From Sporobolomyces roseus (taxonomy: Eukaryota; Basidiomycota; Microbotryomycetes; Sporidiobolales; Sporidiobolaceae), in contig JADILM010000009.1 of assembly GCA_016617785.1 (NCBI GenBank), positions 992,001 to 1,056,000 on the forward strand: a stretch of DNA of 64,000 nt, written 5' to 3'. Under the pieces are notes generated by a model that worked only from the letters and a program-made list of their open reading frames with translations, had not been told where the DNA came from and ran no database searches. A program made the position numbers and the translations under genes. Each line of letters begins with the position of its first letter. The first letter of the stretch is position 1. This document shows positions 10,175-56,699 of this stretch, piece after piece.

Positions 10175-11296
10175 CTACGATGCGCGAAGAACCTGTCTTC
10201 GAGCAATCGGTTGGAATTTGCGGAGCGAGTTCTGAGCGTGCCAGGCTTCGTGAAGGAAGGGAGGAGGGGTTGTGAGGGTTTGAGGAGGCTGAAATACCAT
10301 TCAATACTCAGCAAATGGTCATGCCCGAAGAGTGGAAGAAAGAAGCGACAAGAGACGCACCGACCATGTCCTCATTCGATGCAGTACTTGGTCCATTTGG
10401 AATAGAGGGTGAACTTCTCCATCGCGGACAAGCTGACGTTCAACCAGTCATCTCATTAGCATCTTACAAGAAGTGAACCGCAGAGAAGGAAAGCTCACCG
10501 ACGTGCCAGATCTAACGAGATAATCAATGATGCTGACTTGTCGCTGCCTGATGATCCAGTCTGCTCGATTCAGGGAGTTGCACGTTTCCGGAGAAGGGAG
10601 CAGTTTCGTCTTGAGAGAGTTGATGTACGAAGCTACGAGCTCGCAATCTTTCGAACGAGTCTCGTAGGGCTCTCGAATTCTCCTGATTTGCTCATTGGCG
10701 TGAATCTCCAATAGGTCGATCTGCATGGCGAGCGCGTGTAGCCAAATTGATCCGGGATCCTGTGTTCGAGCTGTTTTAAGGATTTAAGATCTTTAGAGGA
10801 GGCGGAAGATCTGAACTTGCCATTGCGACAGTTCGTCGGTGATACAAGTACTCCAGGTGTGCTGTGAACTCCTTCTTGATGCGTCGAGAGCTCCCGAATG
10901 TGCGTCGCTCTGTCATCTGGACGTCCGTTCAGACCGTGAACGAGGGATTAGCGGTACATGCATCAATAAATGAGCCAGGAGGTTGCTCACCCTCTTCTTC
11001 CCTGCATCCACCTCTCGATAGATCGATGTCAGCTCGTCTCCGAGCCTTCCGAGTGCTTCTTCGCTCCAGCATGACTTCAAGATGAGCTCCTCGTATTTTT
11101 CTCGCCAATCCTCAACGAGATCCTTGTCTTCTTGCCACTTTTCGGCATGGCAAACGATGGTCAGGAGGCGCGTGTGTATCGTCTCGAGTTGCTCATGAGT
11201 TCTAGCGACATTGTTCTGAAGGTCCTCATCAACAGCCCTCTCGGCCAATCCGAGTTCGTACTTGTCGAAGTCGGAGGGAGTTGACCGAACTTGCAT
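10175..11296 (-). CDS. Novel family member (A-type), 282 aa, five exons
   Basis: Unrecognised intracellular, helix-rich protein. Exons are 10991-11296, 10821-10916, 10499-10759, 10361-10432 and 10175-10288, all joined in phase 0. The second intron has a GC donor (GCAAGT). The protein runs MQVRSTPSDFDKYELG, GKKR/MTERRTFGSSRRIKKEF, DPGSIWLHALAMQIDLLE, LVRDGEVHPLFQMDQVLHRM and RTWS/PPQTL, ending RKFQPIARRQVLRAS. It is a full-length homologue of the gene at 55601-56699: same exon number, near-identical length, and matching blocks such as GEVHPLF/GHVTPLF, RTWSPP/SRWTPP and KFQPIAR/KFHPVAR. The aligned initiator Met supports the start, although the frame stays open upstream. No signal peptide, membrane segment or known domain is visible. 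Confidence 0.75.
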
Positions 11297-12199
11297 TGCT
11301 GTCGAGTGTGCTGCCGAGAGAGTGTGCGAAGCTTCCGTGATGGAATCGCTGTGGGTGCAAGCGATGGAGCAGCGATGCAGAAAACTGAGGCTCGGCTTTG
11401 AATGGGAGGAAGGAAGGAAGAGCAGAGAAGCTTTTCGTTCGTTCGGTGGAAGTCGATTACGGCAATGGGACGGAGAGGTCGGAGGATCGGGTTTAGGGTC
11501 GAGGGAATGAGCGAACGTCGGGTTTAGAGAGCTGCAAATTTGCGAGAAGGGTCAGCGTATTCGCTCAAGAACTTAGGGTTTCAGACTGCGTCGTTCACAA
11601 CCTCTTGATGTGTCGAGGAGATCGAGGAAACATAGCGGTATTGAACGAGACCCAAGCGAGGAGAGAAAGGTTCGGAGAAGCGAGAATGAAGTCGACATGT
11701 TGCTTTCGATCTGAGTCTGGCTCAGCCTGTTCGATTTGAGCCAAGCGGTGAGAGCGCTTTCATGCATAATCCTATACATTGAACGCAATAGAATCTGCTT
11801 GAGCGAAGGAATCAGAAAACTCAGCAAACTACTCCGAAGCGTAGCTTCAAACGAAAGGGACGAACCATTATCGCCCTATCTCCATGTACATCAATAGAGC
11901 CTGAGCTCATTCTATCACTTCTCTGCTCACTGAACGCCTGACTGTCTGCCTGTAAACTGATCTTTCCTCCCTTTTTATGTTCGCGATCCCTCGATAACTA
12001 GTAACAGACGCTTGAAGACAGCATGAGCCGGTACCAGAGCAGCTTGGAGGAATCGCGGACTCGTTCCAAAGTCTAGAGGAGCCTTGCGAGAGTGCAGATT
12101 AGCTCATCAATTTAAAGTCGAGATGAAGCAAGAGAAGAGCGGGGACTTCACTTGACCGGTGACCGTATTTGTGACAGCTTCTGGGTTGAATCGTGGTAT
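11297..12199. other. Upstream region of the A-type gene; no supported gene
   Basis: About 900 bp with only short open frames. Sequence near 12,000-12,180 on the minus strand gives short coding-like runs (FNPEAVTNTV, APLDFGTSPRF) beside plausible splice sites. This could be part of an unresolved small gene continuing from the open frame at 12200-12475. Confidence 0.35.
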
Positions 12200-12475
12200 T
12201 TATTTGCCGATCACAAGCGAGTTCGAATAGCCAGAGCGAGTGATTGAAGTGAGGGAAAAACGAGCGATTTCGAAGTCTTCTCTTGACTTGCTACACTTCA
12301 CTTTCGATCTCGCTTTAGCTCCAGGAATGCTTTTTAGAGTAGTATCGAGCTGCTCTGCTATTCGGCTGGCTCCATCTCGCTGCTCCTGTTCTCTCTCGAC
12401 TCTTTTCCACCTCGCGATCCTCAAGTTTCTCGCAACATGATCATCGGCCATTAGACCTCTTGTAAGCTCACTCAA
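12200..12475 (-). CDS. Possible small basic protein (uncertain)
   Basis: An open frame with an internal ATG at MADDHVARNLR and a charged helical stretch (RWKRVEREQEQRDGASR) but no known domain. A weakly similar Glu/Arg-rich stretch, ERERKRELQAETGARYES, lies on the minus strand at 54.3-54.5 kb, next to the closest relative of the neighbouring 13 kb gene. Start, splicing and even coding status are unproven. It could equally be the promoter of the divergent plus-strand gene beginning at 12576. Confidence 0.25.
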   Translation of the reverse strand: MSELTRGLMADDHVARNLRIARWKRVEREQEQRDGASRIAEQLDTTLKSIPGAKARSKVKCSKSREDFEIARFSLTSITRSGYSNSLVIGK

Positions 12476-12575
12476 TTACTCCTCAGATATCGCTTGAGCT
12501 AATCAGCGGTCGTTCAGCAGGGAATGGAGGGGTGAATTCAAGCTCGCTGCTTTCTGCTACTTTTCGGTCGAGTAA

Positions 12576-12936
12576 ATGAGTCTGCCAACGCCTGCCTCGA
12601 TGCCTCGCTGGCTGCTGCGTGTGCTACTCTCAGGAATCTTCTACTCTGTCAAACCCTTCCTTTCGCGACCCGAGGGATTCGACAATCTCGTCCCGCAATC
12701 CGAGCCGTTTCTTCCGCCGTTTCTTCCCTCGGTCGCCTCAAGTTGGCGGATCACCTATCACAAGAATTTGACTCTCTTTGGCAGACGTCGTAAGTGGACA
12801 GAGGAAAGCGGAAACTGACATTACTTTGCTAGCGGAAACAGACGCTCGACACAAATTAGAGGACAGATTAGAGCTATACAGAGGAGGACAAATCACAGAT
12901 ACAAAGGGGGTGCATATTAGAAGGGGGAGGAGATGA
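12576..12936 (+). CDS. Small hypothetical protein (~105 aa), possible mitochondrial/membrane protein
   Basis: A two-exon plus-strand gene. Exon 1 begins MSLPTPASMPRWLLRVLLSG and includes FLPPFLPSVASSWRITYHKN. A 43-nt intron (GTAAGTGG...TTTGCTAG) joins FGRR to PETDARHKLEDRLELYRGG, ending HIRRGRR-stop. The N-terminal stretch at residues 11-30 is basic then hydrophobic, compatible with a mitochondrial presequence or one membrane helix. It converges on the family gene ending at 12988. I do not recognise it. A canonical intron and continued frame on both sides support it being real. Confidence 0.5.
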
Positions 12937-12987
12937 TGAAGGGGAGAGGCAGCAAAGAACGATCAGAGGGAGAAAATTACGGCGACT

Positions 12988-14166
12988 TCAAAATCTATCT
13001 TCCGAAATATCACGATTTAATCCGTACATTCTCGCTTTACGATAACTCAAGCTAGCTTCCGCTGCAACTCCTGGATCTTCGAATGGAGAGACAATCTGTG
13101 TATCACGATGATACTCCTCGGTTTCGCCTTCCTCGGTTTCTCGGAAGAATCGACTCGAGTTTCGGACGTATTGATACCAGGTATTCTCGGTTGGACGATG
13201 TGCAACTCGAGCAGTAATTGACTGTGAGATCATTCAAAGTCAGGTAGAGTATACGTAGAAAGCTGTCAAGCTCACTGAGAGATGCCTCTGATCAGTACGA
13301 CGGTACTCGATTATCGTCTTGAGGTGCCAAAATGCAGCGTGTTTCGCAGCGCGGTCGGGTAGATCTACGTTGATCAAGAAAGCTTGTGATGACATGCCGA
13401 TTACATCGATTCGATGGCCCTTTTGACAACGACACAAAGATCAGTTAATTCCTTTCGAGCACAAAACCTGTCTACGTACTCGCAACGCAGTACTGGAGCT
13501 CGAAAGGTATATCCCAATCACCATACGCTTAGCAGGAGCTTCAGGATGTAAGTACGGATTAGGTTCATCGCGAAGCTCTTTCACTGAGCCGTCGAAACAT
13601 CGATGAAAGTATGCTTCCCTTTCGACGTGCTTGGTCATGAAATGTTCTCCAAGAGCTTCCGTGTACTAATCGAAACATAAGGTCAGTTCACTCCCCGCAG
13701 TCTGATGAAGCCATCTCGTACCCGACTGTCACGAGAGGGCTTGAACATAGTATTTTCAGGATTGATCAGCTCAAGGTGCCTTCGGTGCGCCGCAGAACTG
13801 CCGTTGACTGGACAAGGATAGATTGCGTATTCAATTGTGCTGAACCCGTCTCTATTGAGTGCGCTGACTTCAACATGTACACCCCAACGGTCGAGTTCTT
13901 CGAGATGAAAGAATTTGTCGTGATCAGGGTGTTTTCGATACTCCCGTTTATCATACAGTTTTATCTAATAGGAGCAGATAACATTCAGCTAGAGATCTCT
14001 TCACACATCGTCGCAAACTCACGACAGGGTTGGGAGAATACCAAGCATCTCTTGCCGCTGCAACCATGAGGCGGACTGTCTCGTTAGCTCGAGAGCATTG
14101 GTCTTGATTGCCGCTTGGCGAGTGAGGGTTGCTACTCCTAATCCTCTGTACGGGATTTGACGCCAT
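12988..14166 (-). CDS. Novel family member (C-type), 316 aa, five phase-0 exons
   Basis: Exons are 14023-14166, 13722-13964, 13480-13665, 13276-13419 and 12988-13221; every exon is a multiple of three. The protein reads MASNPVQRIRSS, ANETVRLMVAAARDAWYSPN, REYRKHPDHDKFFHLEELDR, YTEALGEHFMTKHVEREAYF, HRCFDGSVKELRDEPN, then GHRIDVIGMSSQAFLI, the aromatic module TWYQYVRNSSRFFRE, and the family ending SLSYRKARMYGLNRDIS...EDRF. It is the closest relative of the gene at 53524-54342 (AWY/AWF, EYRKH, MTKH/VTKH, HDGSVKEL/FDGSVKEL, RKARMYG). That gene lacks the fourth exon and most of the fifth. No signal peptide or known domain is visible, and function is unknown. Confidence 0.8.
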
Positions 14167-14523
14167 CGCGAAGCTGGGGTGTGTCGAAACGTTCGAAAGT
14201 GAAACGAAAAGACGCCGGTTACAGAAAAGAGGAAAGGAGTCCTTTCCTCAAGGTCCCAGACCTCCGCTTCCCACTTTAGAAACTCTCCTATCTTGACGAA
14301 AAGTGGGCCTAGGGACTCGGGAGTTGTTCGGGTGTTCCGTTCGAAACGGTCTATAACCGCTCACGACCCTGATCGTCTCAAAGAACGAGCAAGACTGCAG
14401 TCGAGGTAACATATCCCGAAAACTGAGCTTCGTACCAATGAGAATCGTGAGGCAGCTTCGAGAAACTCGACACAAGGAAAAGCTTCATTTTCATCCATCG
14501 TTCTTTCTTCCGCAAATCGCGGA
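14167..14523. other. Spacer between family genes
   Basis: About 357 bp between two minus-strand family genes. It should hold the promoter of the 13 kb gene. Overlapping short frames are seen but nothing supportable. Confidence 0.4.
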
Positions 14524-14916
14524 TCAGAATCTCCTACCGCTCCCTCCGTTTGCCCTTGCAATCCACCTATCACGACTGACCCCTGACCCGTAGATTGCCT
14601 CAAAGCGGTGTCCTAAACTCTTGACTGTGCTGTTGTCGTGAGTAGAGACAGCGTAAACCTTTCCGTTCTCCATGTCGTATTTGTACTGGATCCCTCCATC
14701 TGGGCTGTAGCGCATCGGCAGATCTCCAGCTGTGAATCTATACCAAGTATGGCCGTCGTGCGTTTCCTCCTGTACGCCGTTTTGTGAAATCGGTCAAAAC
14801 TCGAACTTCTCGGAAGGGAAGACACTCGCGTAAGTTGGACTCACGCAAATGCCATGCTTACTAGGCTCTTTGATCTTGTCTATATTCCTTTGATGAGCAG
14901 GGAGAATTGAGGTCAT
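14524..14916 (-). CDS. Novel family member (D), short form, at least 105 aa
   Basis: Exons 14845-14916 (MTSILPAHQRNIDKIKEPSK) and 14524-14769, phase-0 join. The second exon carries the aromatic module HDGHTWYRFTAGDLPMRYSP and the family ending SLGHRFEAIYGSGVSRDRW, then RRF-stop. It aligns along its length with the next gene (HQRNIDK/HHQNIEK, LPMRYSPD/LPMRYYQD, GHR...IY...R-x-RWI), so the two look like tandem duplicates. An upstream minus-strand stretch starting at an ATG near 15283 (MAAKARGVELWVLV, ending THRGKG before a GTAAG donor) joins in a compatible phase to an acceptor just before this exon. It may be a true 5' exon, but the implied intron would be unusually long. Confidence 0.65.
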
Positions 14917-15420
14917 TGATGCTGTCAATCTAAAACGGTAGGCGTCAACGATCATCGACATTAGCACGCATAGTGTCAGATCCATGCGCTGAGGAGGACA
15001 GTTTACCGCAGGTTTATTCACACAAACGGCTCAGGACCTTATACGAGTGAATGGAGGGAGAAAGAAAGAGACCGGTTAGAGAAATCACGAGGAAATATTG
15101 ATTGGAGTCTTTCCTCGCGATCCTAAGGGTTGCCTAAGGGGATGCTGGACTTACCCTTACCACGGTGTGTGATCGGACTGATAGCGATTCGGCTTTCCCG
15201 AATCTGCTCTCTTGTGCGCTCTGAGTGCAGTCCCGCAAAGCAAACGAGTACCCATAATTCGACTCCTCTCGCTTTTGCCGCCATACTCAGCGTCTCTCGA
15301 GTGAGCGTACACGATACTTAACCTGAGAAGATCGACAAAGTTTGCGAAAACAACGTGAATTGAACTCAGCGCAACGACAAAACAGTATAGAAACTTTGGA
15401 CTTTTCCATCGACCCCACTC
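14917..15420. other. Spacer or possible 5' exon of gene D
   Basis: About 500 bp between two minus-strand family genes. The only coding-like piece is the possible exon near 15140-15283 described under the 14524-14916 entry; the rest shows nothing supportable. Confidence 0.35.
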
Positions 15421-15886
15421 CTAGACCAGGCCAGCTAATACCCTGTTCTTCTCTTCGATCCATCTTTCCCTTTTCACCTGATAGATCCTAGCCATCCGAT
15501 GACCAATTGATGCTTGAGGTGGACGAGGATCGATCGTTTCGTTCGTCGCAGCGTTGACCCACGAAGTCCGCCTCGTAATGGGATCGTATCGTTCCTGTAC
15601 GAGACCATGAGTTTCATCTTGATAGTAGCGCATCGGTAATTCGCGGAGCGATCCTCCAGGACTGGGTGGATTAAGATAATAGTATGTCTGCCGGTTGGCA
15701 AACTCTTTCTATTCAAGCAGAAGCACCGAAATCAGCAAACATCTGTACTTGGCAAGAAGCGTGTAATGTAGAGCTAGTTGGACAGACCTTCAGTTCAAGT
15801 TTCCCTTGCTTAGCTTCCTCGATTTGCTTTTCGATGTTTTGATGATGCCGGAGGACAAGCCAGGAGTCGCTCGATTCTGGACTCAT
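15421..15886 (-). CDS. Novel family member (E), 128 aa, two exons
   Basis: Exon 1 (15788-15886) encodes MSPESSDSWLVLRHHQNIEK and a charged helix. A 79-nt intron with an uncommon GTCTGT donor leads to exon 2 (15421-15708). That exon carries the aromatic module NRQTYYYLNPPSPGGS and LPMRYYQDETHGLVQERYD, a second module TRRTSWVNAATNETIDPRPP that loosely recalls a WW domain, and the signature SIGHRMARIYQVKRERWIEE. It lacks the terminal RF of its relatives, ending VLAGLV. Its tandem neighbour at 14.5 kb is its closest relative. Function is unknown. Confidence 0.7.
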
Positions 15887-25811: not shown

Positions 25812-27238
25812 CTAGACGAGACGATTGCCTCCGAATGCTGAGTCCTGTTGATAGATTCTCTGCTTGCGGTGACTGAGAGAGTTTGCTTTGTCGGGTCGCT
25901 GAGTAAGGGTGTCAAGCAAAGTTAATTTGGGAGCGTAAAGTTCGAAGAGGGAGAGCTCACCCAGTGACTTCCCCAATGGTAGCCTTCGGGCGGCTCAAGA
26001 GATCCTTTGTACGCACGTGGATCCTACGAAGCGATTGCCGATCATCGAGGAGCCTCGGCGAAAGCGGTAAAGTTAGAACAACTCACACTAGAAAAAGTAG
26101 ATTGATCGTTGAATCGAAGATGAGCTCTTTCGTGGGTGCCGTGGGTGGAAATGGGAGGAAGAGGAGCTGTAGTAAGAAGTCGTGAAGACGAAGCTACCGG
26201 GAAAGGCTGACGGTCGACGTTGGCCTGTCAAAGCGATGTGGTTCAGTAACTTTCCCGATCGCCGGATATAGAGAAAAGTCGCTGCTAACCTCTTTCGTCC
26301 ATGGCTTGAAACGACCATCCTCGTCAGGTACTATACGAAAGATGACATTGACTGTTTCGTCGGGATGACCTTGACGAGAGATGGTGAGCCGAAATGGAGT
26401 GAAATCGGGCGTGTTTGGAGAACCCTTCTTTCGCTCTTCAAGCGAGCCCGTCAACTCAGGTCTCGCCGGCAGTTGGTACCAATGGTCTGTGTAGCCGTCG
26501 AGTGCTGTTCGAGGCAAAGCTGTGAACAGATGTGCTTAGATCGCGAAGGAAATTGTCCGCACCAGGCAATGAGAAAGGAGTGTTTGATTCGCAGATTTCG
26601 AGCCACTTGTTCATCTCGATTTCACTAGGATTGTTCTTCTTGTAGCCAGGGAAGGAAGGTTGGACTGCCATTGCCCTTGGTAAAGCGTACCATTTCGCGA
26701 GCTCGATATCGCGGGACAACCCCTGGGGTTCTTGTCCTTCGATCAATCGTCTCCAGACAGGATTCGTTTGCCTCTGTTGCGCATCAATCCAGACTTGTTC
26801 GCCGACTTCCAATTCACTCTTCGAAGTACGAGTTGTTTTAACCCGCGCACACCGAGCGACTGCCTTCGGAATTGTGTAGCTTTCGACAATCCACTTGCCG
26901 TTGACGAGTCTCTTGGACCTCGCATCTGTTCCAGGGTAGAAGCCACGGACGACGATTCCCGATACGATATAGGCGTGACTTCCTCCGTAATCTGCAGGCT
27001 CACGAAATCGTCGAAATTTAATACTCACGGGTTTCGATAATGAGGTGGAACGCAACTCACGCTGTGCTTGTTCGGAAGTCAACTTCTCTACCTCAATGTC
27101 GATGTCTTCAGCGGGGAGCGCGATCTTGGTCGGAACTTCTCCGATCGTGCGATTCCAATGTCCATAGAATCGACGGATCCTTTGACAAATGTCGTCATGT
27201 GTTCCTACTGGAGAGCGATGGAACCCATGATACGACAT
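25812..27238 (-). CDS. Novel family member (J), largest form, 374 aa, six exons
   Basis: Exons are 27061-27238, 26563-26991, 26290-26519, 26087-26224, 25961-26023 and 25812-25898. The first two junctions are phase 1, the rest phase 0, with one frame throughout. The protein runs MSYHGFHRSPVGTHDDICQR, EDIDIEVEKLTSEQAQ, HYGGSHAYIVSGIVVRGFYP, a basic middle region, WYALPRAMAVQPSFPGYK, DGYTDHWYQLPARPEL, VNVIFRIVPDEDGRFKPW, GYHWGSHW, and the family ending SLSHRKQRIYQQDSAF...RLV. That ending matches the 13 kb gene (SLSYRKARMYGLNRD). It stands alone between the gelsolin-like gene and Gid1. It contains the longest unique region of the family and may be closest to an ancestral single-copy form, though that is only a guess. 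Confidence 0.72.
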
Positions 27239-31838: not shown

Positions 31839-32904
31839 ATGCCTCGAAGATCAAACAGAGTCCCGCATAACGTTACTTCCTCCCAAGGTACCAACACCTC
31901 CGGTATTTCTGGACGACGTGCACGGCCAGTAAGAAGGAAGCTAGAGGAGCGAAGAACACGTCGTCCAGACAACGCAAGGATGGCAGCAGAAAGGGTGCGC
32001 AGAGGTTCTCTCACTTCAACGCGAAGACTTCCTGACGACTCGTCCGTGTAGGAGGAACTTTGTACGTTATGGAGCAAGTACTGTGATGCTCTCAAGGCTG
32101 TCGAGAATGATACCACGCATCGAGGTGATCACAATCGGCAGAATCGGGCGGACAACATTCTCAAGAAACTCGTCGAACGAGCAACAGCGTTTCAGGATCT
32201 GACATATCAGGTTCGTACCTCTACACGTATTGAAGTATCTCTTCTCTCCGAACCCTGACGTTACCTTCTGTAACAGACTCGTTGGCAAGATGGATTTGAG
32301 TGGTTTGAATATGTCAAGGATTCAGGCTGCTTCTTTCGAGTGACGGAGAGCGGAGCTGTCGAGGAGCTTCCAGAGGACGACGCTAGTGCATCCGACTCGA
32401 ATGTCTCCATGGCAGAGGAAGAACCCGCAGCTGTGCCTGCAACACGACAGAATTCCGAGGTGCCCATTCCCGACCGATATGAAGAAGCACAAGACGAGCT
32501 CACGGAGAGGTGGGCTAATTACAAGACTCTCAAGGAGAGTGGACAGGTAGGACACGCAGCAGCAGCACGGAGGGCTCTGCTCAACTTGATTGAATTCGGT
32601 CGAGCAGTGCGAAGGCAGTTTCGTCCGAACTTCAGGGTGCGTTGTTTTCGTCTTTGGACGCTTCGACTGGCCGCGGGACTAAAAAGCGTCTCGTGTGTAG
32701 ACGCATACTGTCGAAGGCATCAAATATGTCGAGTTCATTCGGAAGAGCGGTGATTTTCTCGCCATTTTTCGAGGTCAACCTCGCATTCAACACTTCACGG
32801 ACGCAGAACGATCTTGCATCGAGGTCCAGCGGCGTAGTATCAGTCATCGAACGTGTCGCTCACATGGTATAGATCGAGAGACGTGGTTAGCTGCTCATAA
32901 CTAG
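31839..32904 (+). CDS. Novel family member (F1), 292 aa, with two internal repeats
   Basis: Exons 31839-31994, 32052-32210, 32277-32636 and 32701-32904, all phase 0. A basic N-terminus (MPRRSNRVPHNV, RRARPVRRKLEERRTRRPD) could be a nuclear signal. Two copies of a module follow: a charged helix, then an aromatic strand pair. Copy 1 is LWSKYCDALKAVEND with GFEWFEYVKDSGCFFRVTES. Copy 2 is LTERWANYKTLKESGQVG with GIKYVEFIRKSGDFLAIFRG. An acidic linker lies between them (EELPEDDASASDSN). The protein ends with SISHRTCRSHGIDRETW. It is a tandem duplicate of the next gene. Function is unknown; no enzymatic motif is visible. Confidence 0.8.
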
Positions 32905-33349: not shown

Positions 33350-34403
33350 ATGTTCTCGACTTCCACTCGTCCGGCCACTCGTCAAACGCGCAGGTCCAAA
33401 CGCCAGGAGCTCAAGGTTGCAAACACAACTCGAAAAGTCAGTGCCGAGTCAGAAAAGGAAGGGGTAAGCGCAGATTTCGTTTTCGTTTCTCGAAACGAAC
33501 GGAAAACGGCTCTCCTGACTCACTTGAACACAGATTGGTAAGAGGTGGGAGCACTGGATAGTTCTTGACGGAGAAGCAAAGGCAAAGCGGAGCAATGCTA
33601 AGAGACAGGATCAAGCTTGGGAAGCACTGTCTGACCTGGTTCGCTACGCTTTGACTGATTGTCGAGATCTTCACTTGGAGGTATGTCTTCGCACTGTCTA
33701 CCACGACATACAGCTCAGATGTAGCTCAGCTGTATGTCGAGTACACTTCAGTCAGTAGCTTGGAAAGGCTATACCTACTACGAGATCAAAAAAGGAACAG
33801 GACGGTTCTTTCGATTAACCAAAGCTGATCTACCTCAAGAGCTTCCTTCTGACGAGAAGCGTCTGAGGACGAGTACCTACAGCTCTTCCAAAGTTAGTGC
33901 ATTCGAAAGCGAGTTTTGGAGATGATTCAGCGCTGACACTCTCGCCTTGATTTCCCTGTAGGATCAGACTATCGACACAAATGAACAGAACGATCTCGCC
34001 AAGGAATGGCTGCGTTATGAGAAGCTCAGAAGTGATGGAAAGACAGCGAAAGCTGCTGATGAAGCTTTCAAGGGCATCATTGAGTACGGTGAAGCTCTTC
34101 GTCGATTTCGAATTTTCAGGGCTAGTCCTCTTTCTTTGCCTGCCTGCCCATGAGCACATCAGGAGGATTCGATCACTCACTCGCTCTCTCTGTATGACCT
34201 AGACCTTGAACCACGATGGTATCAACCTCGTCGAGTACCTTCGAAACAGCAATGTCTTCCTCGGGATGAATGGAGCTATCGCCGTCGAGTATGCCCTTCC
34301 ACCTGATGATCCCATGTATGTGGAACCCAAACGTACTATCGGTCATCGCTCTGCCCAAATACACTGCGTCGACAGGGCGAAATGGATGCGCGAACACACC
34401 TAG
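33350..34403 (+). CDS. Novel family member (F2), 253 aa, five phase-0 exons
   Basis: Exons 33350-33463, 33534-33680, 33752-33892, 33962-34120 and 34203-34403. The fourth intron starts GCTAGT: phase and homology to F1 (…FR/TH versus …FR/TL) require this GC donor. The N-terminus is basic (MFSTSTRPATRQTRRSKRQE). Repeat 1 is RWEHWIVLDGEAKAKRSNAK with GYTYYEIKKGTGRFFRLTKA. Repeat 2 is AKEWLRYEKLRSDGKTAKAA with GINLVEYLRNSNVFLGMNG. The ending is TIGHRSAQIHCVDRAKW. Each block has a counterpart in F1 in the same order, so F1 and F2 arose by tandem duplication and then diverged strongly. Function is unknown. Confidence 0.8.
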
Positions 34404-34792: not shown

Positions 34793-35905
34793 ATGGCTCG
34801 CAGAGGGCACGCTCGAAAGCCAGGCGAACCACTTCCCGATCAAGTCGTCGTACATCATCGCACTGCCACCGGTAAGAGAGCTCATCGTCGTCACCGGGTT
34901 GTCGACCTTCGAGGAGAGGAAGATAGAGAGATGCAGGAGCGCATACAACAAGAAGACGAAGAGGTGAGCCTTAAACAGCTTTTAACCTCCTTTACCGCTA
35001 TGACTAAATCTCCTGTCGAGCTCAGTCAAATCACCGTCCCAGCGCCCCTCGACCTCCTCAGCGTCAGAAATCAATCAGAGACTTCTTCCACCGCCGAGAA
35101 GACGTTCCACCTGAGCCTGAGCCAGCTAGCGCCAGCGGCGAAACTGCGGAAACAGACCAGGAGAAGGGGAAACGGGATGCTTCAGTGGGTCTGTAGCTCA
35201 AGATTATCTCCATCCCTTACTCATAGTTGTACAACCGTACGTTACAGGCCCGAATGGAGGAAATTGATCGTCGCGCTATCGAGGAACACCCGAGATTCGA
35301 AACAGGGAGAGCCTCGTCAACATCCCAGGCTGTCGAACGTCTTCAAGCTTTCGACTCCCGCAATGAGCTCGAGGTGAAGAAGGAGAACGCGAGTCCCCGC
35401 TGGCTCGAACGCAAGATTGAAACTTGGCTGACCCAATTGCGAAGAAAACAGATTCGCAAAGCTATTCGAAAGCTGATCGGGAGTCACTGGACCAACTACA
35501 TCTCGTTGTATCACGACTCTGAGAATGAGGTTCCAGGTGCCCACAAAAAGGCTGAAGCAGAAGCTCGACGCATGATTGGGATCGTCGAAGAAAACTTCAC
35601 TCGTTCGGATCTTGAGCAAACCCTTAGGGTACGAGCTGTCTCTCCACCGTCGAAGTTGGTCATCCGTGATCTGACACGCCATTGTCATGACACAGTTCTC
35701 GTACGGTCCACACGAGCATTCTGTCGATCGAGAAGCTCACGGAAAGTGGTGGGAGATTATGCCCGCTCAAGGTCGCTACTTCCGACACGACGGAGCTGTC
35801 TGGAGGTCGCGTGTTCAAGCTTCTATAGGTCATCGGGTGGCTGCTCTACACGGATTCAGGAAGGAGGACTTTGAGAAAAGGATGAACCGCTCTCCTCGTT
35901 TCTAA
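34793..35905 (+). CDS. Novel family member (F3), 306 aa, with a consensus PIP box
   Basis: Exons 34793-34963, 35026-35184, 35248-35628 and 35696-35905, all phase 0. A basic N-terminus (MARRGHARKPGEPL, GKRAHRRHRVVDLRGEED) is followed at residues 71-78 by QKSIRDFF. This fits the PCNA-interacting consensus Q-x-x-[ILM]-x-x-[FY]-[FY] and has basic flanks (PPQRQ before, HRRE after). A charged helical middle (ENASPRWLERKIETWLTQLR) leads to the aromatic module HGKWWEIMPAQGRYFRHDG and the ending SIGHRVAALHGFRKEDF...SPRF. PCNA binding would place the protein in the nucleus at replication or repair sites; this rests on one short motif. Confidence 0.8.
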
Positions 35906-43257: not shown

Positions 43258-44168
43258 TCAGAACCTTCTGTTGCTATTGATAAGACTCTTATCTATCCCG
43301 TACATCTCTGCTCGACGGTGGCTGAGAGCATGCTGAGGCGGCTCAGCGTATTTCTTTCGTCCGTCGAGCATTTCCTGACCAGTCACTATGCTACATTCGC
43401 GCATCCATGTCTCATTGTTACGTGCGGAGTAGATGTCATAGCTCTGATGAGGGTGGAAAACGAATTCGTGAAGGATGCGGTTCCCTTCGTCGAGGCGAAA
43501 GGATCGGTGACTCCCAGCCACGTATTCGTAGTACCATGTACAATCGCTCCCTTTTGTTCGCTAGGCATGAGGATCAAGCAGTGTGAGTTTACTGTATGTT
43601 GATCTCGAGAGATGCAAATTACCCTGAGATGCGAGTCTCCCCTTTTCGCCAACGGTATGAGCTGACCAAGAATGTTCTGTTGCCACTTCCAGTCTCCGGC
43701 TTGACTAGCTTGTAGAAAATTCTCCAATAGGTCACTCTCGCTGCAGGCCTGGACGGCGTAAGTCTAGTGAGCTCGACGGGCCGGTTAAAGATCAAAATGA
43801 GAGAACACTTACGGCTTGGTCGTAGTAGTCCCCCAAAGCCTGTAGCCTAGCAGAGTTGTAGCTCAGATCTGGATGATGCTCCATCACTCGAGTTGTCGAT
43901 GAAAACAAATTCGGTGTGGTGAGAGAGAAGTAGAGGAACAAGAAGCAAAAAACTAGCTGTTGCCACCTGCACGCCTCAAGTACTCGTGGACTGGAGGATC
44001 CTGCTTTGTGAACTCGTAGAGGAGTCCGTCCACGAGAGGAGATTGCAAACCGCAGTCTGTAGCCGAAACCTCGCGGTTCAGTTCCCTTTGCTCTTCCGCG
44101 ACTAGTAACCGAAGTACTCTACCGAGCTGACGGATATATGGAGTGCTTGCAACCCGTGAATCAGTCAT
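43258..44168 (-). CDS. Novel family member (G1), 228 aa, four exons
   Basis: Exons 43967-44168, 43813-43868, 43623-43748 and 43258-43560; intron 1 is phase 1, the others phase 0. The protein runs MTDSRVASTPYIRQLGRVLR, LLVAEEQRELNREVSATDCG, LSYNSARLQALGDYYDQA, WKWQQNILGQLIPLAKRGDS, the aromatic module SDCTWYYEYVAGSHRSFRLD, and the ending ALSHRRAEMYGIDKSL...NRRF. The exact start is less certain because the frame extends upstream to about 44303 (MHFESVNVLHDC). First of three same-strand family genes. No known domain is visible. Confidence 0.75.
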
Positions 44169-44381: not shown

Positions 44382-45148
44382 TCAAAATCTCCTGCTACGA
44401 GCGATCCAGGCAGATCTATCAATCTTGTGGATGCCGGTAACTCGATGTCCGATTGAGCTTTGAACGTGACCCATCAACTCCGCCAACCTCACTTGCTCTC
44501 GAATTGCCCCCCTCCCATTGATGTGAGTACGTTGCCCGTTTTTTGTGATCTCGTAGACGGTGTCATCATTTTTGAAGTGCAATTCGACAAAATGAATCCT
44601 ATTCCTATCCTGCTTCTCCGTAAAGAATCTGAACGTGTCCGCCACGTACTCGCGAAAGTACTCGCCGGTTGCAGAATCGAAGTACGTCTACAGAGTGAGA
44701 TCAGAGCCTGTAGATGGTGCCAGAGGTAGCGAAAGAGAACTTGCCTGTAAATGATCCACCGCTCCGATCTCGCTATAGAAACCCAGAAGAGGTCGAAGAG
44801 CAGCCTGAGCTGCATCGTTGATCGGCACGCTCAAAGGACGGCCAGAAATTGCGTTGCGAAAGACACCACTGTAGTACTTGATCTCTTGAGCACGTCTCTC
44901 GAGCGCCTGTAAATCCGCGGCGCCAATCAATCCTCGGTGAGAGCAAATGTCATATCAGGCAGAGTGACTCACTACTCTTTGAAGCTGTCTACGTGGCTGT
45001 GTTACCTCGGAAGGGTCAACTGGGATCTTTGCTCATGCGTTAGACAGTGCAATCGGAAACTTACGTCGAGATTTGTGTTATTCTGCGCCTCTAGTTGTGC
45101 TATGTAATGCTGATACTCTTCTAACCTGTCTCGAAGGACTGATGGCAT
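44382..45148 (-). CDS. Novel family member (G2), 201 aa, four phase-0 exons with a GC-AG intron
   Basis: Exons 45065-45148 (MPSVLRDRLEEYQHYIAQLE), 44973-45026, 44745-44906 (ALERRAQEIKYYSGVFRNAI) and 44382-44687. The third intron begins GCAAGT, a GC-AG type donor. The last exon has the aromatic module YFREYVADTFRFFTEKQD and the ending SIGHRVTGIHKIDRSAW...SRRF. The N-terminal Leu/Glu/Gln-rich segment could form a short coiled coil. Function is unknown. The ending is nearly the family consensus. Confidence 0.78.
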
Positions 45149-45862: not shown

Positions 45863-47043
45863 TCAAAGCCTTCTACTCTGTACCACAAACGCATTGCTGT
45901 GGTTTTCCCGGTGACCCAAGCTGGATTGGGAAGATTCTCCTTGATTCAAATGTCGATCGATGAAGTTACGAACACGAACCGAAGTCGCGTTGTCAGGGTT
46001 ACCCGACTGTGACTCAGATACAGCCGTCAATTCAGCAAATTTGGATGGCAGAATTCAAACGCACCAAGAGCGACATTTTCGCAATGACTTCCTCGACCTT
46101 GTACATCTCGCAAAAAGCGTCAATGCGGGGTTTTGCGCTCAAGCGCTTCCATTGTCGCTGTTCAAAGATCGAGTATGCGACTCAGCCCAGAAACTCGTCG
46201 AATCAGGGTCAATTCACACTTACCTGATGTTTGGGAACGTCCTCTTTGATGAATCCGAGAACCGCTTCGACTCGGTACCAAACAAGATCGAGTTGTAGAT
46301 TGTTGGGACTCGTGGTGATTTGTTTCCGAATCGGCTTGGCCCACTCGTTCTCAAATTGCTGTGAATTATCGCCATGTAGAAACAGCTCTTGATAAGGCTG
46401 ATTAAGAAGCTTCTGGAGGAACTGAGTTCGAGCCCGGAGTACTCCCTACACAGCAGAGTCAGTACCAAACAGAATCAATCTGAGGAAGAAAGCTTGACGG
46501 ACATTGAGATTGAGCTTCCTCATAATGCTTTCAACCGTAAACTCTTTGACTGGCCCACTTTCTGTCACAATCTCAACCTGAACATGGCACTCAGCAGAGC
46601 ATAGAATAACGGCAGTTCGAGAAGCGACTCACAAGGTTTCCTCTCCAGTTCCTTCGCTCAAGCAGCTTCTTGAAGTAAGCGGCAATACTCGTCCAATTTG
46701 GCTCGTAATAGTAGTTGAAGCCTCGGTTGCGAGTAGCAACATGTTCATCAGGAGTGATGATTGTTCCATCAAGACGTAGGAGGAGCTGGTGTTTCCAAAT
46801 TTCGAAAGCCTGCTTTAGTTCAGGTTGTTGCGGTGAACCCAAACGAGATTTGATGATATCATCGAGGTCTTCGACTAGTGCACGACGGAGCGTTTTACTC
46901 CTCGATGAATCACGACGAGAAAATAATCCAGTTTTGCTGACAGCGTTGGCTGCTTCGAATGAGCCGTAGTCTGGAGGATCTGGTGCCGAATCATAAATGG
47001 GGGGTCGCTGTGAACCCAAGTCGTCTTGATGTTGATAGTTCAT
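45863..47043 (-). CDS. Novel family member (G3), 314 aa, five phase-0 exons
   Basis: Exons 46633-47043, 46503-46577, 46224-46445, 46065-46157 and 45863-46006, every one a multiple of three. The N-terminus is MNYQHQDDLGSQRPPIYDSA, then SRSKTLRRALVEDLDDIIKS, AFEIWKHQLLLRLDGTIITP, NRGFNYYYEPNWTSIAAYFK, EIVTESGPVKEFTVESIMRK, QKLLNQPYQELFLHG, WYRVEAVLGFIKEDVPKHQ, and RQWKRLSAKPRIDAFCEMY. The ending is SLGHRENHSNAFVVQSRRL. The GHR and terminal SRRL link it to the family, but the rest has diverged furthest. The second intron has an uncommon GTCCGT donor. It lies 189 bp from the Elp1 stop. Confidence 0.72.
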
Positions 47044-50200: not shown

Positions 50201-52305
50201 GTCTTCTTCATCCTCTTCGTCTGATCCTTCCTCTCGTTTCGCTACTTTCGCAACGATTCTTCGAGCTCCTTCCATAACCACCACTCTTTGCGCTTCCCCT
50301 TCCTTTCCAACAATGACGACTTCATCTCGAACTTCCCCATCTTCTTCTCGGACAGTTCTCAATGCTCCGACTTTCACTTCTCCCGTTTTCATCTGGAGCA
50401 TCGCACATTGCTTGACGACCGATCTGGTGGCTCGAGGAAGGTCGACTGTCCATTCGAGAACGGGAGTAGGTAAACCAGCTCTGGCGCGGGCTTGAGCATT
50501 GCCAGTAAGCGAGAGGGACCAAGAGTAGACGGCGACTGAAGTCGGGTAGAGGAGCGCAAAGTAGAGAGGTGCAGTGGAAGTGAGGGAAGATGTGGAAGTT
50601 GGAAGGGAAGGAGCGAAGGATATGTGGGTCGGAGTAGAAGAAGTTGGCAGAGTGAGAGCGCTCATTGGAGGCGGGATGTTGACGAGTCGGAAGGGTGTCA
50701 ATTTGGTGTTGGCTGCCGAACGAGATAGTGAGTCAGCCTATAGTGCAGCGATCAAAAATAAAGCTTCACTCACATCCGTCGACAACCGCGACTGTCGCAT
50801 CGTCCTCGTGTCTCTCGGCACTCCTCTCTGACCTCAGCGTATCCCATCCCATCTCGTACGTTTCCGACCCTTCCCTCGTGATCAGACTCAGCTCGAGAGA
50901 CTTTTCAGGATGCCATGAGAAAGCGAGGAGTTTCGAAGAATTTGATAAAGACGGTGAAAGGGTTTGCTTGAGTGCCCAATAATAGTTCGAACGATGATAG
51001 AGGTGTACTGTGAGCACTAGGAGTCAGCTCTGAGGAACGTTGATCAATTCAAGGCGAGCTCACCAGTGTCAGAACCATCCTCTTTTTCAATCCAAACCGC
51101 GAGCACATCACTTCCCGAGTTCCAAGCGACTTCCCTAATTCTTCCTTTCTCCCTCACCTCAAACTCGTACCTCCTCAATCCGTTCCTCTCGAAGAACACA
51201 ACCTGTTTCCTCCCTTCCTCACCTTTTTCAATCGATACATCCTGACTACTCGCGATCAATTCTCCACTCGGGATCCAATCCAACGCATCCTCCAATCCCG
51301 CCACCGGTAAACTAGTCGAAGACAATTCCGCTCCAACCCGGGAGAAGATTCGAATTCGTCGAATTTGTCGAGATGATTCGGTTTCTTCGTGACCTGTTCG
51401 AGCTGGTACGGTTTCGATACTCGAAACAGCGAACCATGATGCGTCACCTCTCCATCTGATTCGAACTTTGCCTTCGTCTTGAGGACCGACGAGTCGTTCA
51501 CGAGTGAGTAAAGGATCGTTGGCGGCAGCTTGAGCAGCAGCGGTCTTTCCAAGTGAACCGTGGAATTGTGTCGATTTGTTTCCCCATCCTACTGAGACCG
51601 GTGCGTCGGAACCGAAGGAAGCGGTGTGTAAGGGTGATTCAGAGAGGGGATCGAAGGATTTCGTCAAAGTGAGGAGAACGTCGTTGCCTATAAATGATGA
51701 GGGTGAGCGGCCCGTTTCGATTAGCGTGATGTGATCTAGCTTTACCGTTGACAATCGCTAGTAGCTCTTCATCAGGACTCCATTGAGCTGCTTTGATACC
51801 TTCATCGAAAGTTCCGACGTTTTCCCTCTGCAAACTCGCAATTTTCGGTCAGCTTAGCTATCGGGGAAGCTGAGCGAGGACCTAGAGCTCACGACAGGTT
51901 CTCCAACTCCACCATTCAGGAAGATCTGCTCGATATCACCGTTCGATAGGACTACTACGAGCGCATCATCTTCTGGAAGATATTTGAACGAGAGTACGAG
52001 AGGAGTTTCTGCTGTTGGCGCTTCTTGCTTTGGAAGGGGAAAAGCGGACCACGCTGTCAATAGCTCGGGATCCTGTTCACTTCCGATCTGTCAGCGAATC
52101 TTATGAGGAACTTGTGAGAGTGAAATAAGCGAACCTGTTTGCTCGAGTTGCTATACACTTCCAAGCTGATCTCACCATCATTCGAATCACCTTGTAAGAT
52201 AGTGTAGACCTTGTCGGTAGCTGGATCGAGTGTTGTAGCGACTAATGAAGAGTTTGCTGAAGTCGAAGGTGAGAAATTGACATTGAGTAGAGTGAGGGAC
52301 CTCAT
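47232..52305 (-). CDS. ELP1: Elongator complex protein 1 (Elp1/Iki3)
   Basis: Largest scaffold of the Elongator complex, which modifies wobble uridines of tRNAs in the cytoplasm. The start MRSLTLLNVNFSPSTSANSS leads a long beta-propeller region including EISLEVYSNSSKQ, QIFLNGGVGEPV, GIKAAQWSPDEELLAIVNG, SVGWGNKSTQFHGSLGKTAA and KVRIRWRGDASWFAVSSIE. The hallmark CRKHRIDLNLLHDHNPSFF and QVKEVDHLNLFLSGLKDEDV block follows near mid-protein. TPR-like helices come next (FEKSKYAEAG, ELAFEIAG, KVLLEYAQDLPAAVDALCEG), then a basic segment (SSSRTARSRRRAGLKKIAGK) that in the family binds tRNA. The end is KVKWRIGMLSTGES with a stop at 47232. More than ten exons. The size by span fits the family's roughly 1,300 residues. 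Confidence 0.93.
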
Positions 52306-52444
52306 GTCGCTCTACGCTCAAGTTTGCTAGGCTTCTGGAGCTGGGACTGAGCTGCCTCTGGTGGAGTTGTGTGAATGGTAGAAGCAGGTTGAATTTGTGA
52401 GGGAACTCTTCAACTCTTACAACTCCCTACCTCAACCTTTAACA
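52306..52444. promoter_or_regulatory. Short divergent promoter (ELP1 / NDUFB2)
   Basis: 139 bp between divergent ATGs. It must serve two housekeeping genes; no specific element is identified. Confidence 0.55.
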
Positions 52445-52764
52445 ATGGCTGGAGGAGCATTCAAACCTGGATTCAACCCCCATCTACCCGGTGAGCATGA
52501 CCCTCCCGTAACCCGAGACGAATTCGCTGATTTTTTGATTCTCATCATCCCGATTCGTTTCTCGACCTCAGGACTCTCTCATCGTCTCGGAGCGAAGATG
52601 CTAGGTGCTAGCATGTGGTTCTTCCTCATGTGGAGGGCCCGCAGCGATGGAGCTGTGCTGCTCGTAAGCCCTTGTGACCGTTCAGACTCTTCAAGAAACG
52701 TTGAACTAACCGATTTCCCCTTTCTCGCCAAATGTAGGGCATGAGACACCCCTGGGATCACTAG
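52445..52764 (+). CDS. Complex I accessory subunit NDUFB2-like
   Basis: A 54-residue protein in three exons: MAGGAFKPGFNPHLP, then GLSHRLGAKMLGASMWFFLM with WRARSDGAVLL, then GMRHPWDH-stop. The GASMWFF...W/YRAK-like...DG..LLG.RHPW(D/E)H pattern is that of the small single-helix membrane-arm subunit NDUFB2 (AGGG) of mitochondrial NADH:ubiquinone oxidoreductase. Its presence means the organism has canonical complex I. The first intron is phase 1 (GTGAGC), the second phase 0 (GTAAGC). Confidence 0.85.
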
Positions 52765-52823
52765 TAGACTCAAGAGATGGACTGTGTGTACCGATAGAAG
52801 TTATTGAGGGATGTTTAAGCGAA

Positions 52824-53381
52824 ATGTCATCTGGTTCAATAAACTCGATTTCGGGACAGGGACATGCACGAACTCGCGAGTCTACGGGAGTGGGCATCGG
52901 TCGAGGTCACTCCACGACTATAGGCTACTCGGAAGCGGTCAACGAGATACTCAGCCATCACATACCGATCCTTTCTTCCTCCACCTTTTCGACGACGACA
53001 GCGACAGCAACGAAGCAAGACCGATCTACAGACGGAACTCCGACGAGAAGAGAGGAGCGAGGGCAAGACAGTAGTAGATCGTCCCCTCCGATGGCAGGGC
53101 GAAAAAGTCGGAAGGAGGCCTATCGACGATCAGGGGAACGATTCACTTTTCGATGCGAATGATTCCAACGACCGCTTACTGACTCATCCTGAACCTCTTG
53201 CAAGCCTCAGGGTCCTCTCACTCCTGCGCCTACATTCGTCAAAGAGCCGACTGCTCCTCTCTCTCTGGGTGAAAGGAACTCGATGGGAGCACTCGCAAAC
53301 TCAGGGAGAGAGGGTCAAGGCCAAGCCGATTTCGTGGACGTTCGTGGCGAGCGATTCGTGGATCCCGTCCGAGAAAGATAG
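52824..53381 (+). CDS. Hypothetical Ser/Thr/Arg-rich small protein (model incomplete)
   Basis: An open stretch begins MSSGSINSISGQGHARTRES and runs through STFSTTTATATKQDRSTDG to RKSRKEAYRRSGERF. After a likely intron ending CCTCAG, a second exon reads GPLTPAPTFVKEPTAPLSLG, ERNSMGALANSGREGQGQAD and FVDVRGERFVDPVRER-stop. The second exon looks coding; I could not find a good donor for the first, so the join and start are unresolved. I do not recognise it. It lies 60 bp after NDUFB2 and 143 bp before the next family gene. Confidence 0.35.
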
Positions 53382-53523
53382 GAGGTTGATCTGAGCGCGT
53401 GAGCGGGGTCATCGTGGGAGAACGCCCGCGCTCCTTTTCCTCGTTTCTGTATCCGGTTCTATCTTTCTCTCACTCTATCGCCCTCGCTCTTTGCTCATTA
53501 CTACTCTATACTCAAGTCTCACC

Positions 53524-54342
53524 ATGGCTTCTCCATCTCGACCATCTCCAATCGGTAACAAACAACAGTGTGACGCTGCCAACGCTCAAACAAAAGCCGT
53601 GATCCAATTGGCAAAGGAAGCTTGGTTTGCGACGAATCCCGTGAGGTTAATGCTTCTGTTCAAGAAATCTACAGCTAATCATTGTTACCGACAGGTGAGA
53701 AAAATGCACGGGGACTTCGAGTATCGAAAACATTCCGTTTTCGAGAGATACTTTCACTACAAGCAACACGACGACCCGGGAGTTTGGAGCGAGTCGAGGG
53801 AGCTTCTTGCAAATGGAACTACGATGGAAATCGATGTCAGACCTTACCCTCCCAAAAAGGCTCACTGGATGTTCCCGAACCATATCAGACTCATCGCCGA
53901 TGCTCATGCTATCAAGGACAATCCTACCAGTCGTGTATGTTGCTCGTTTTGCATTGTGAAAGTACTGTAGCTGACAGTTTGGTATGTTCAGTCAGAGAAG
54001 CTCTTCGGCGAGTGCTTTGTGACTAAACACGATTCATCAGGCCTCTTTTACCATCGATGCCACGACGGATCAGTCAAGGAGCTTCTGTTCAGCCCCGACG
54101 AGCACATGAGTGGACACGAGACCACGGCTAAAAAGCTGTTCATCTACTTGTCGCCGACGAGCGTTGCATTCCAGGTGCGTTGGGGCAAATTCTTTGGGCG
54201 AACACTGAGCCGAACTGATCACTTGGTCACGGCTGTCATAAAGGACATTGTCGCTACGTCGTCTCAGGTTCAGGCAAGCTTGAACCACCGCAAAGCGAGG
54301 ATGTACGGATTCGATTGCGATGATTCGGAGGATAGGTTCTGA
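53524..54342 (+). CDS. Novel family member (H), 204 aa, shortened C-type
   Basis: Exons 53524-53640, 53695-53934, 53992-54174 and 54268-54342, all phase 0. The protein runs MASPSRPSPIGNKQQCDAAN, VIQLAKEAWFATNP, FEYRKHSVFERYFHYKQHDD, MEIDVRPYPPKKAHWMFPNH, ECFVTKHDSSGLFYHRCHDG, SVKELLF, KKLFIYLSPTSVAFQ and VQASLNHRKARMYGFDCDDS...EDRF. Exons 1-3 match those of the 13 kb gene one for one. That gene's fourth exon and the aromatic module of its fifth are absent, so this looks like exon loss. The last intron is 93 nt and open in frame, so retention would insert 31 residues. Function is unknown. Confidence 0.8.
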
Positions 54343-55009
54343 ACTCGGCGTTATCTTCCTCGCCTCTTTCTGCCTCGCTCGTCGTCCCCGTCGTCCTCTT
54401 ATCCTTCTTATCTGTACCTCCCACCAATCTGTGACCTGCACTCCTCTTGATAGCTTGAATTCGTGATTCGTATCGAGCGCCTGTTTCCGCTTGCAGTTCA
54501 CGCTTCCGTTCCCTTTCCAATAAGTAGTGGTCAGCTTGAGCGCTACCTCAGGGGTGGCTTAGCGAGTTTACAAGAAGTCTGATGCTGACGATCTATCTTG
54601 CGAGATTTGTAAATACGAGGGGGGGAAAGAGACACGAGAGAGCAGGAGCAGCAAGATGAAGCCGGCCGAGTGGCGGGGTAGCTTAACACGACTATAAGAA
54701 ACATTCTCAGAGTCAAGACGAGATCGGAAGTGGAGGGTAGGAAGCTAAGGGACGATTCAAAGTTGCTCGATCTCGACCGACTGTCTTGCTTCCACCACTC
54801 GCTCTGGCTACTCATACCTGCTTTTGTTCAGCGGAGATGCATCTCAAATTAACCTGGAACCCTCCGCAAGTACGCGCAGGTGAGTCCTCGCTCGGCTCTT
54901 CCCCCATCTCGCCCTTGAAATGATGAGCTGACCTGCCCACTCGCGGGACTCTGCTAGGCTCTGACAACGCCTCTGTAGTGTATTCAAGGTACCCTGCTAC
55001 TCGAATCAT
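54343..55009 (-). CDS. Possible small minus-strand gene (uncertain)
   Basis: Two coding-like pieces on the minus strand: MIRVAGYLEYTTEALSEPSR (from the ATG at 55009) running to GGFQVNLRCISAEQKQ, and farther on ERERKRELQAETGARYESRI, IQAIKRSAGHRLVGGTDKKD. Splice sites between them are plausible but not unique and the stop is unclear, so the limits are approximate. It would converge on the family gene ending at 54342. No domain is recognised. Confidence 0.25.
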
Positions 55010-55600
55010 GCTGTCGACAAGTCTCTCTAGCAGCGTGAGGGAAAGGGAACACTGAAAGGGAGGAAAGACTGGGCTATGGAGAGGACATCGAGCATATAGT
55101 GCGCGAGGGAGTAGGTCAGAGAGCTCAATTTCATGTTACTCAGGCCGAAGATAGAATGGGAAAGGTATGTTTATCGAATCGATGCTTTCCTTAGAGTTGG
55201 CTGATTTCGCTGACTTCATTTCATACTTCGAACAGTTCCTGACCTAAGCGTCTACGAGGCATGCTTTTGCGATACTCGACAACGCTCGAGGCACTTGCCG
55301 ACCTCGCGATTCCGAATTCGCTTCGAGATCGGGGAGACGGCGACCTCACGTTCTGCAAACCTTTCCGTCTCTCGTTCGGCTACACTACGACGCTGCTTTG
55401 CTGTCCATCTGCTACGCTAAGCTGTCTGGAGTGATTCGGACGAAGTGGAGACGCTTACCAGCATTTCTGCGAGAACCGCGGACCGTTTTCCTAAACCCGA
55501 CGTTTCCCTCGAGCCGCTTTCTGTTTCTTCCTCTCCTTACCCTCTCCCTCCGACTGATTCTCACCGTTTCTTGCTTACCATTGAAGAGTCGCTGGATCAG
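55010..55600. other. Upstream region of the 55.6 kb family gene
   Basis: About 590 bp. The frame of the downstream gene stays open back to a TAA near 55430 without an ATG, so an upstream exon cannot be excluded. Otherwise this should be promoter and 5' UTR. Confidence 0.4.
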
Positions 55601-56699
55601 ATGCCCCATCAACTCACTCAAGCTCAGTCGGATCATCTTGCCACAGCACAGCGCGAAGCGGACAGCACATTACACGAGGAATACAGGAACGCTTTCGTCA
55701 AAGTCCACAAGCTACAGCAACTTTTGGAAGCCATCGTCAAGTTCTGTGTCAATCGAGGAGAAGAGAGCCGGAGTCTAGAAGCTTGGAAGAAAGCGTACAT
55801 CAAATTCATCGAAGGAACCAGTATGAGGGAGGTGGTGCTGAAAGGGTTTGAGGAGCACATTGGACTTGTTCGAGAGAGCGCTGGCAAAGGGAAGAGGGTA
55901 AGCAGACATCTCGCTTTTCTCAACTTTGCAGAGCTCACGCTTATTGATATCTGCCTCGATCCGTGTTTCAGCTGATCCGCTTGGGAAGGATCAAAGCAGA
56001 ATTTGCTCCGCAGCTTGACCTGCCTAGAGAAGCCGGTCTGAAGGAACGCTCGAACGACGCCCTTCTTTACACCCTGCAAGACACTGACTCACAATAACTT
56101 GTTGACTACAGAGTGTCGAAGACATCTGGTATCAAGAGATGTACTCTGTCCTTCTCTCTATCAGCGGCTTTATCGAAGTCCAGATGAAAGCGAAACGAGC
56201 GCCGTATGAAGGCGGACCTTTGACGGTGCTTCGTGACCCTTTGAGAAACTGGTTTAGCAAGATCAAAGACGATCTCTTCACTTCCAACGTGGAATTTGAG
56301 AATGTAAGGCCGGCGCGCAAATACTGGCTCAAACTCTATCACGAGATTCTAGTCCTCTTTCACCTCGTTCATTTGGGGGAACCGGTGACGTCCTTCCCTC
56401 TCTCTTCCTCTGGGCGAGAAGGACTAACGTTGCCAATCAATGTCCAACAGATCATAGTTGAAGGCCATGTAACCCCTCTCTTTGAACCGGACACAATACA
56501 GCATCGACTAAGCCGATGGACAGTTCGTTCAAATCCGCTTTCCCTCATTCTTCTGTCGATCTCTAGCTGATATGCTCTTGCCGAATCTACCTTACAGCCT
56601 CCCGCTTATCTCGATCAGCCCGAGAACCTCATCGCAATGGAATTTGGCAAATTCCATCCTGTCGCAAGGAGTCAGCTCGAATCTCTCGACAGGTTCTGA
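55601..56699 (+). CDS. Novel family member (I, A-type), 281 aa, five exons
   Basis: Exons 55601-55897, 55972-56075, 56114-56384, 56451-56522 and 56598-56699. It is a full-length homologue of the gene at 10175-11296, on the other strand. Blocks: MPHQLTQAQSDHLATAQREA, EAWKKAYIKFIEGTSM, GKGKR, RIKAEFAPQLDL, EDIWYQEMYSVLLSISGF, KYWLKLYHEILVLFHLVHLG, VEGHVTPLFEPDTIQHRLSR, W(T)PPAYLDQPENL, and GKFHPVARSQLESLDRF. Introns fall at equivalent places. The second is best explained by a GC donor (GCAAGA) in phase 2, where the 10 kb gene has GCAAGT in phase 0. The terminal ARSQLESLDRF resembles the EDRF end of the C-type genes. Function is unknown. Confidence 0.75.

Follow-up and report, generated by a model that had tools for sequence, protein, structure and literature searches.

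In the KRAB-ZNF proteins of tetrapods and the ZAD-ZNF proteins of insects, C2H2 zinc fingers are paired with a common effector domain. Here we consider a possible fungal parallel in the basidiomycete Sporobolomyces roseus, starting from a 64,000-nucleotide stretch (the window) that covers positions 992001-1056000 of contig JADILM010000009.1 (C9; other contigs are abbreviated likewise) in assembly GCA_016617785.1 (22.4 Mb, 15 contigs). A first-pass annotation had placed thirteen genes of the window, named here by their position in kilobases (kb), in one unrecognised family, chiefly on a shared C-terminal signature. The facts support a real, undescribed and lineage-restricted module in nine of the thirteen, which we call the SIGHR module and which consists of a hairpin region followed by a two-helix SIGHR tail. 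As in the KRAB-ZNF and ZAD-ZNF systems, fingers and a common module occur in one gene model, here at four loci elsewhere in the same genome, and the finger profile matches the C2H2 fingers of CTCF. Unlike in those systems, the module sits at the C-terminus and reaches the cut-off of no Pfam family, the window copies lack fingers, and the family is, as far as seen, far smaller. Our preferred reading, to which we assign a probability of roughly 0.4, is that the module family consists of nuclear proteins. We infer a nuclear location in which the fingers of the relatives on C7 and C1 would select DNA targets, the module would bind a common partner or another module copy, and the finger-less copies of the window would act as partners or competitors of the finger-bearing proteins. 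Nuclear regulation is the likeliest role because the module associates with fingers at other loci.

The signature itself is well founded. All eleven tails listed by the first-pass annotation lie in open frames where it had placed them, as does the ARSQLESLDRF ending of 55.6, and the C-terminal RF that it reported for several genes is present in 13.0, 14.5, 34.8, 43.3, 44.4, 53.5 and 55.6. When tail profiles were each built from the other ten tails and run over the 1772 open reading frames (ORFs) of the window, ten of the eleven were recovered with expectation values (E) of 5e-10 to 0.002; 45.9 was missed (E 0.37), and the best non-members scored E 0.13-0.34. A longer profile was trained on 14 final exons, eight from the window and six from other loci of the genome, so that only the scores of untrained sequences are independent. 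Among these it found L042 (C7:141.9k; 1.5e-13), L043 (C1:117.6k; 2.4e-9), two places in L039 (C9:1130k, 8.7e-8; C9:1127k, 6e-4) and, in the window, 53.5 (5e-6) and the first modules of 31.8 (2e-5) and 33.4 (3.5e-3). The best score in a reversed control of 8163 ORFs was 0.061, and 25.8 (0.064) and 45.9 (0.97) did no better. The nine module genes are as follows, each with the E value of its tail when held out.

12988..14166, minus strand: gene 13.0, type A, model of 316 amino acids (aa), 5 exons; body in common with 53.5 (blastp 2e-32); the hairpin and an SLSYR tail are both in the last exon, 12988-13221; tail E 1.6e-4.
14524..14916, minus strand: gene 14.5, two-exon model of 105 aa with module; blastp match to 15.4 at 2e-10; tail E 0.0016.
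15421..15886, minus strand: gene 15.4, two-exon model of 128 aa with module; tail E 5e-10.
31839..32904, plus strand: gene 31.8, four-exon model of 292 aa with two modules; the first hairpin lies in exon 32277-32636 and the last exon is 32701-32904; tail E 3e-6.
33537..34403, plus strand: gene 33.4, partial model, two modules; tail E 2e-4.
34793..35905, plus strand: gene 34.8, four-exon model of 306 aa with a helical exon and the module; relatives in the same genome; tail E 1.4e-6.
43258..44168, minus strand: gene 43.3, 228 aa model, 4 exons, module; first intron weak (score 0.8); tail E 1.2e-4.
44382..45148, minus strand: gene 44.4, 183 aa model, 3 exons, module; tail E 5e-6.
53524..54342, plus strand: gene 53.5, type A, four-exon model of 212 aa; a hairpin-like stretch and the SLNHR tail are encoded by different exons; last 61 residues match 34.8 (blastp 9e-5); tail E 3e-8.

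These models are computed only, from three-frame readings by eye joined with scored introns, which are short and have GTRAG donors and YAG acceptors; like the TTAGGG repeats at two contig ends, these features look fungal and probably basidiomycete. The models of 33.4 and 25.8 are incomplete, and in 43.3 one intron has little support. For 34.8, the 306 aa model supersedes a 328 aa version, P0001 having indicated a missed intron; the longer version was used in alignment A2 and in its row of the hydropathy table. In alignments A2 and A6 the C7 locus L004 has a hand-joined N-terminal part, unlike its automatic model.

The domain extends beyond the tail into a hairpin region and a helical exon that the first-pass annotation had missed. 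Final exons of eight genes align across both the hairpin region (rough consensus [YF]xEYVPxTxRYFxxxxDG) and the tail (QASIGHRxAALHGIDRxxW, with several members ending in RF). Hairpin and tail occur together in the eight window genes used for training and in 53.5, which was not. Most models have an alpha-helical exon ahead of the module, followed by a phase-0 intron, and judging from exon lengths, a phase-0 intron precedes the last exon in every completed model. A second hairpin is present in 31.8 and probably in 33.4. Two splice sites deserve mention: the last intron of 44.4 (44688-44744) is modelled as GC-AG, and between positions 33962 and 34203 no acceptable intron joins the second helical exon of 33.4 to its last exon, which may reflect an odd splice, a model error or decay.

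That the domain is unrecognised, as had been proposed, is borne out by the searches made. Pfam gave no module match over any cut-off; of the 176 Foldseek matches to the PDB with an E of 10 or less, the best had 1.4 and none reached 0.001; the best PDB sequence-profile match, to designed beta-trefoils (0.012), was not accepted. For the final exon of 15.4, AlphaFold2 predicts four strands and two helices (mean predicted local distance difference test score, pLDDT, 65; predicted template modelling score 0.41). Its short beta-meander recalls a WW domain, of which Foldseek and Pfam give weak echoes, but the Foldseek E is 2.0 or worse and the Pfam E is 0.86 in one of 15 members, and WW identity was rejected since neither the sequence nor the fold matches are significant. 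Identity with a beta-trefoil repeat of designed proteins was likewise rejected as insignificant: the hairpin pattern is similar, but the match covers a single short stretch and the profile E, 0.012 at best, lies above the default cut-off of 0.001. Pfam matches to HicA (0.0062), Osmo_CC (0.0059) and ECM29 (0.015) fell under the curated cut-offs and were disregarded. At the DNA level, Rfam had no match in the window at gathering scores, and a DNA pattern for GHRxA was not enriched (199 matches; the reversed pattern gave 260).

Outside the window the module has profile support in at least ten places, on three contigs:

C7: 78.7k, 141.9k and 144.8k.
C1: 117.6k, 477k, 1104k and 1111k.
C9: 1102k, 1127k and 1130k.

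A profile of window tails only reaches seven of the ten: L003 (1.6e-11), L004 (7e-11), L015 (2.4e-10), L006 (2.8e-8), L036 (2.6e-5), L039 (7.9e-5) and, weakest, L005 at C1:1111k (0.0035). The final-exon profile found L042, L043 and C9:1130k, and C1:1087.6k matches a type A body exon alone (1.3e-4). Searches of the genome scored the best candidates only, so that these counts are lower bounds; left out were C3:276.9k (0.10), C5:999k (0.43), C3:1362.8k (0.09), C12:750k (0.13), C1:925.9k (0.28), C4:765.6k (0.03) and C2:1633.8k (0.04). The earlier suggestion that the density in the window might typify the genome was not supported: the flanking 200 kb of C9 contain three module matches, all on the right (one of them in the training set), the best score in the left 100 kb being 0.11. 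Since flanking C9 sequence holds so few matches, the density is local.

Beyond this genome, 5.8 billion proteins were searched under constraints of length, shared words and introns. With a single member as query, none of 111 candidates reached E 1; a five-protein profile yielded, among its best 7997 candidates, one fragment resembling the start of 34.8, and a 15-exon profile yielded one fragment that by eye agrees with L036 at 48 of 53 residues. Because of these constraints, absence elsewhere is not proven. Abstracts, with subscription journals mostly outside the search, gave nothing on a SIGHR-module family, which leaves its unpublished status unproven. The module matches nothing described in the libraries searched, and this one genome contains many diverged copies of it.

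A clue to function comes from the relatives on C7 and C1, which appear to have paired Cys/His fingers of the C2H2 kind. Finger-like exons, which combine a GRNW motif with a Cys/His pattern, lie upstream of the module at L003, L004, L005, L042 and L006, the finger part of L006 being found untrained (1.9e-5); a further genome search added no finger locus. The computed models are:

L005: joined model of 379 aa, fingers and module.
L003: joined model of 361 aa, fingers and module.
L004: joined model of 354 aa, fingers and module, first intron weak.
L006: joined model of 369 aa, fingers and module, no start.
L042: fingers and module as two separate pieces only.

On the four joined models, fingers and module would share a putative transcript. 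The Cys/His columns are conserved across four sequences, the PDB profile match to CTCF reaches 2.4e-7, and Pfam zf-H2C2_2 matches three of four members under its curated cut-off (best 2.5e-6). Moreover, L003 and L004 are 91% identical over the 779 alignment columns of the module half; aligned globally, they drop to 38-54% on the finger side (L003 201-900) and to 33-53% on the downstream side. Because the two are alike in the module half only, their alignment suggests that this half was converted or transferred between the two finger genes. Over 594 bases it shows nonsynonymous divergence of 0.065-0.071 and synonymous divergence of 0.098-0.128, that is, modest constraint. The boundaries are abrupt: L003 960-1730 (C7:144k) and L004 1463-2240 (C7:79k) share 91% DNA identity, which drops sharply on both sides to sequence that is hardly alignable.

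For the nuclear reading speak the leave-one-out recovery, the loci that the tail and final-exon profiles find elsewhere in the genome, the phase-0 intron of the completed models, the upstream finger exons, the modest constraint in the L003/L004 module half and the lack of a signal-peptide-like N-terminus in 11 models. On the last point the first-pass annotation was probably right as far as hydropathy can tell: no obvious signal peptide was seen, and the highest N-terminal 12-residue hydropathy was 0.89 (computed start codons; 25.8 and 33.4 excluded). Several results weigh on the other side. In the window genes the finger profile finds nothing at E 3, and the best GRNW match is 0.11. The 12 places listed for PF13465 in the whole genome include none of the finger loci and none over the cut-off, and every gene model is computed. 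The predicted fold is also uncertain: the 34.8 exon gives two tail helices only (pLDDT 59), so the hairpin fold is not confirmed. A stronger version, in which the family would be a fungal counterpart of the KRAB- and ZAD-finger systems, where finger halves exchanged between paralogs would bring a constant C-terminal module to shifting DNA targets and clustered finger-less copies would modulate it, strikes us as quite unlikely. If the regulator reading is true, the family would give a small-scale fungal example of how finger proteins diversify, one that could be tested in a genome of 22 Mb.

How far the family reaches is a separate matter. Four of the thirteen genes are not counted among the module genes:

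25812..27238, minus strand: gene 25.8, body ORF 26456-27238 and SLSHR tail exon 25812-25898, connecting splices not settled; held-out tail E 0.002.
45863..47043, minus strand: gene 45.9, five-exon model of 314 aa; membership is doubtful, with a tail similar to that of L039 only on visual comparison.
10175..11296, minus strand: gene 10.2, type B, modelled at 250 aa; member of another family, without module.
55601..56699, plus strand: gene 55.6, type B, modelled at 247 aa; member of another family, without module.

That all thirteen form one family, as first proposed, is highly improbable despite their common neighbourhood and some common RF endings. Profile-profile comparison joins only nine, linking the module to 13.0/53.5 with 96% probability but to 10.2/55.6 and to the 25.8 body with 0.1% each, and to 45.9 with 2%. 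The two type B genes are indeed homologues of each other, as had been claimed (blastp 4e-16), and the 25.8 body, unrelated to the module, is itself multi-copy, with relatives at C8:1463.7k, C2:131.6k, C2:399k, C2:51k and C9:979k. At the last of these (C9:979-981k) a 25.8-type body is followed by a similar tail, which scores 4e-6 against a profile of window tails, that of 25.8 among them. Could the tail alone be a C-terminal tag, a sorting or recognition peptide on otherwise unrelated proteins? Tails of a similar kind occur at C9:980.7k and on the 25.8 body, which is unrelated, and several members have basic tails, all of which is consistent with this; we nevertheless think it unlikely, as the hairpin region accompanies the tail in nine genes and, under the final-exon profile, the 25.8 tail does not outscore the reversed control. 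Another doubtful possibility is that the cluster consists of decaying relics of an older family. High divergence, the missing splice ahead of the final exon in 33.4, weak constraint on the L003/L004 pair and low coding scores from an automatic gene finder are what decay would leave, but the other models keep open frames and consistent splice phases, ten of eleven tails are kept, and the fragment resembling L036, from a public contig, keeps its frame. Fast divergence and uneven clustering are also common in secreted or host-directed proteins of parasitic fungi, a role that we regard as very unlikely here, given 11 models without a hydrophobic N-terminus and the finger association at other loci.

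It is also conceivable, if improbable, that a selfish or mobile system is at work, for example a type A and type B pair that spreads along the chromosome arm with a repeated DNA element of up to about 0.7 kb, whose copies, which by eye have intron-like signals, are 72-83% identical to that at C9:1128k. The order type A, element, type B recurs at 10-14 kb and 53-57 kb of the window and at C9:1126-1130k, and all six places of the element fall in the last 154 kb of C9:

Window 11963-12320, minus strand: element copy.
Window 54711-55402, plus strand: element copy.
C9:1067.7k, 1100.6k, 1128.0k and 1143.9k: further element copies.

The pair was, however, not found at the element's other three places, the type B matches near C9:1067.7k lie on the opposite strand, most module genes have no such pairing, and Pfam gave no transposase-like match. 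Frame-breaking indels argue that the element is probably not coding.

Chromosomal position gives a last point of comparison. C9 (1,157,481 bases) ends about 101 kb past the window. Among module and type A loci outside C9, four of eight lie within 200 kb of a contig end, which is not significant (p 0.07). Beyond the window, the type B family was counted at seven places, none of them more than 100 kb from a contig end (binomial p 2e-7; without C9 four of four, p 1e-4). These p values call for caution, since the searches started from C9, two adjacent loci entered as separate counts, and not every contig end is a telomere. The type B relatives at C2:2347.9k, C8:5.6k, C8:10.6k and C11:885k lie 2-11 kb from contig ends. 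TTAGGG repeats occur at the start of C6 and at the end of C2, the latter neighbouring a type B relative, and the starts of C1, C7 and C12 (L044, L050, L055) are similar over their first 120 bases and are perhaps subtelomeric.

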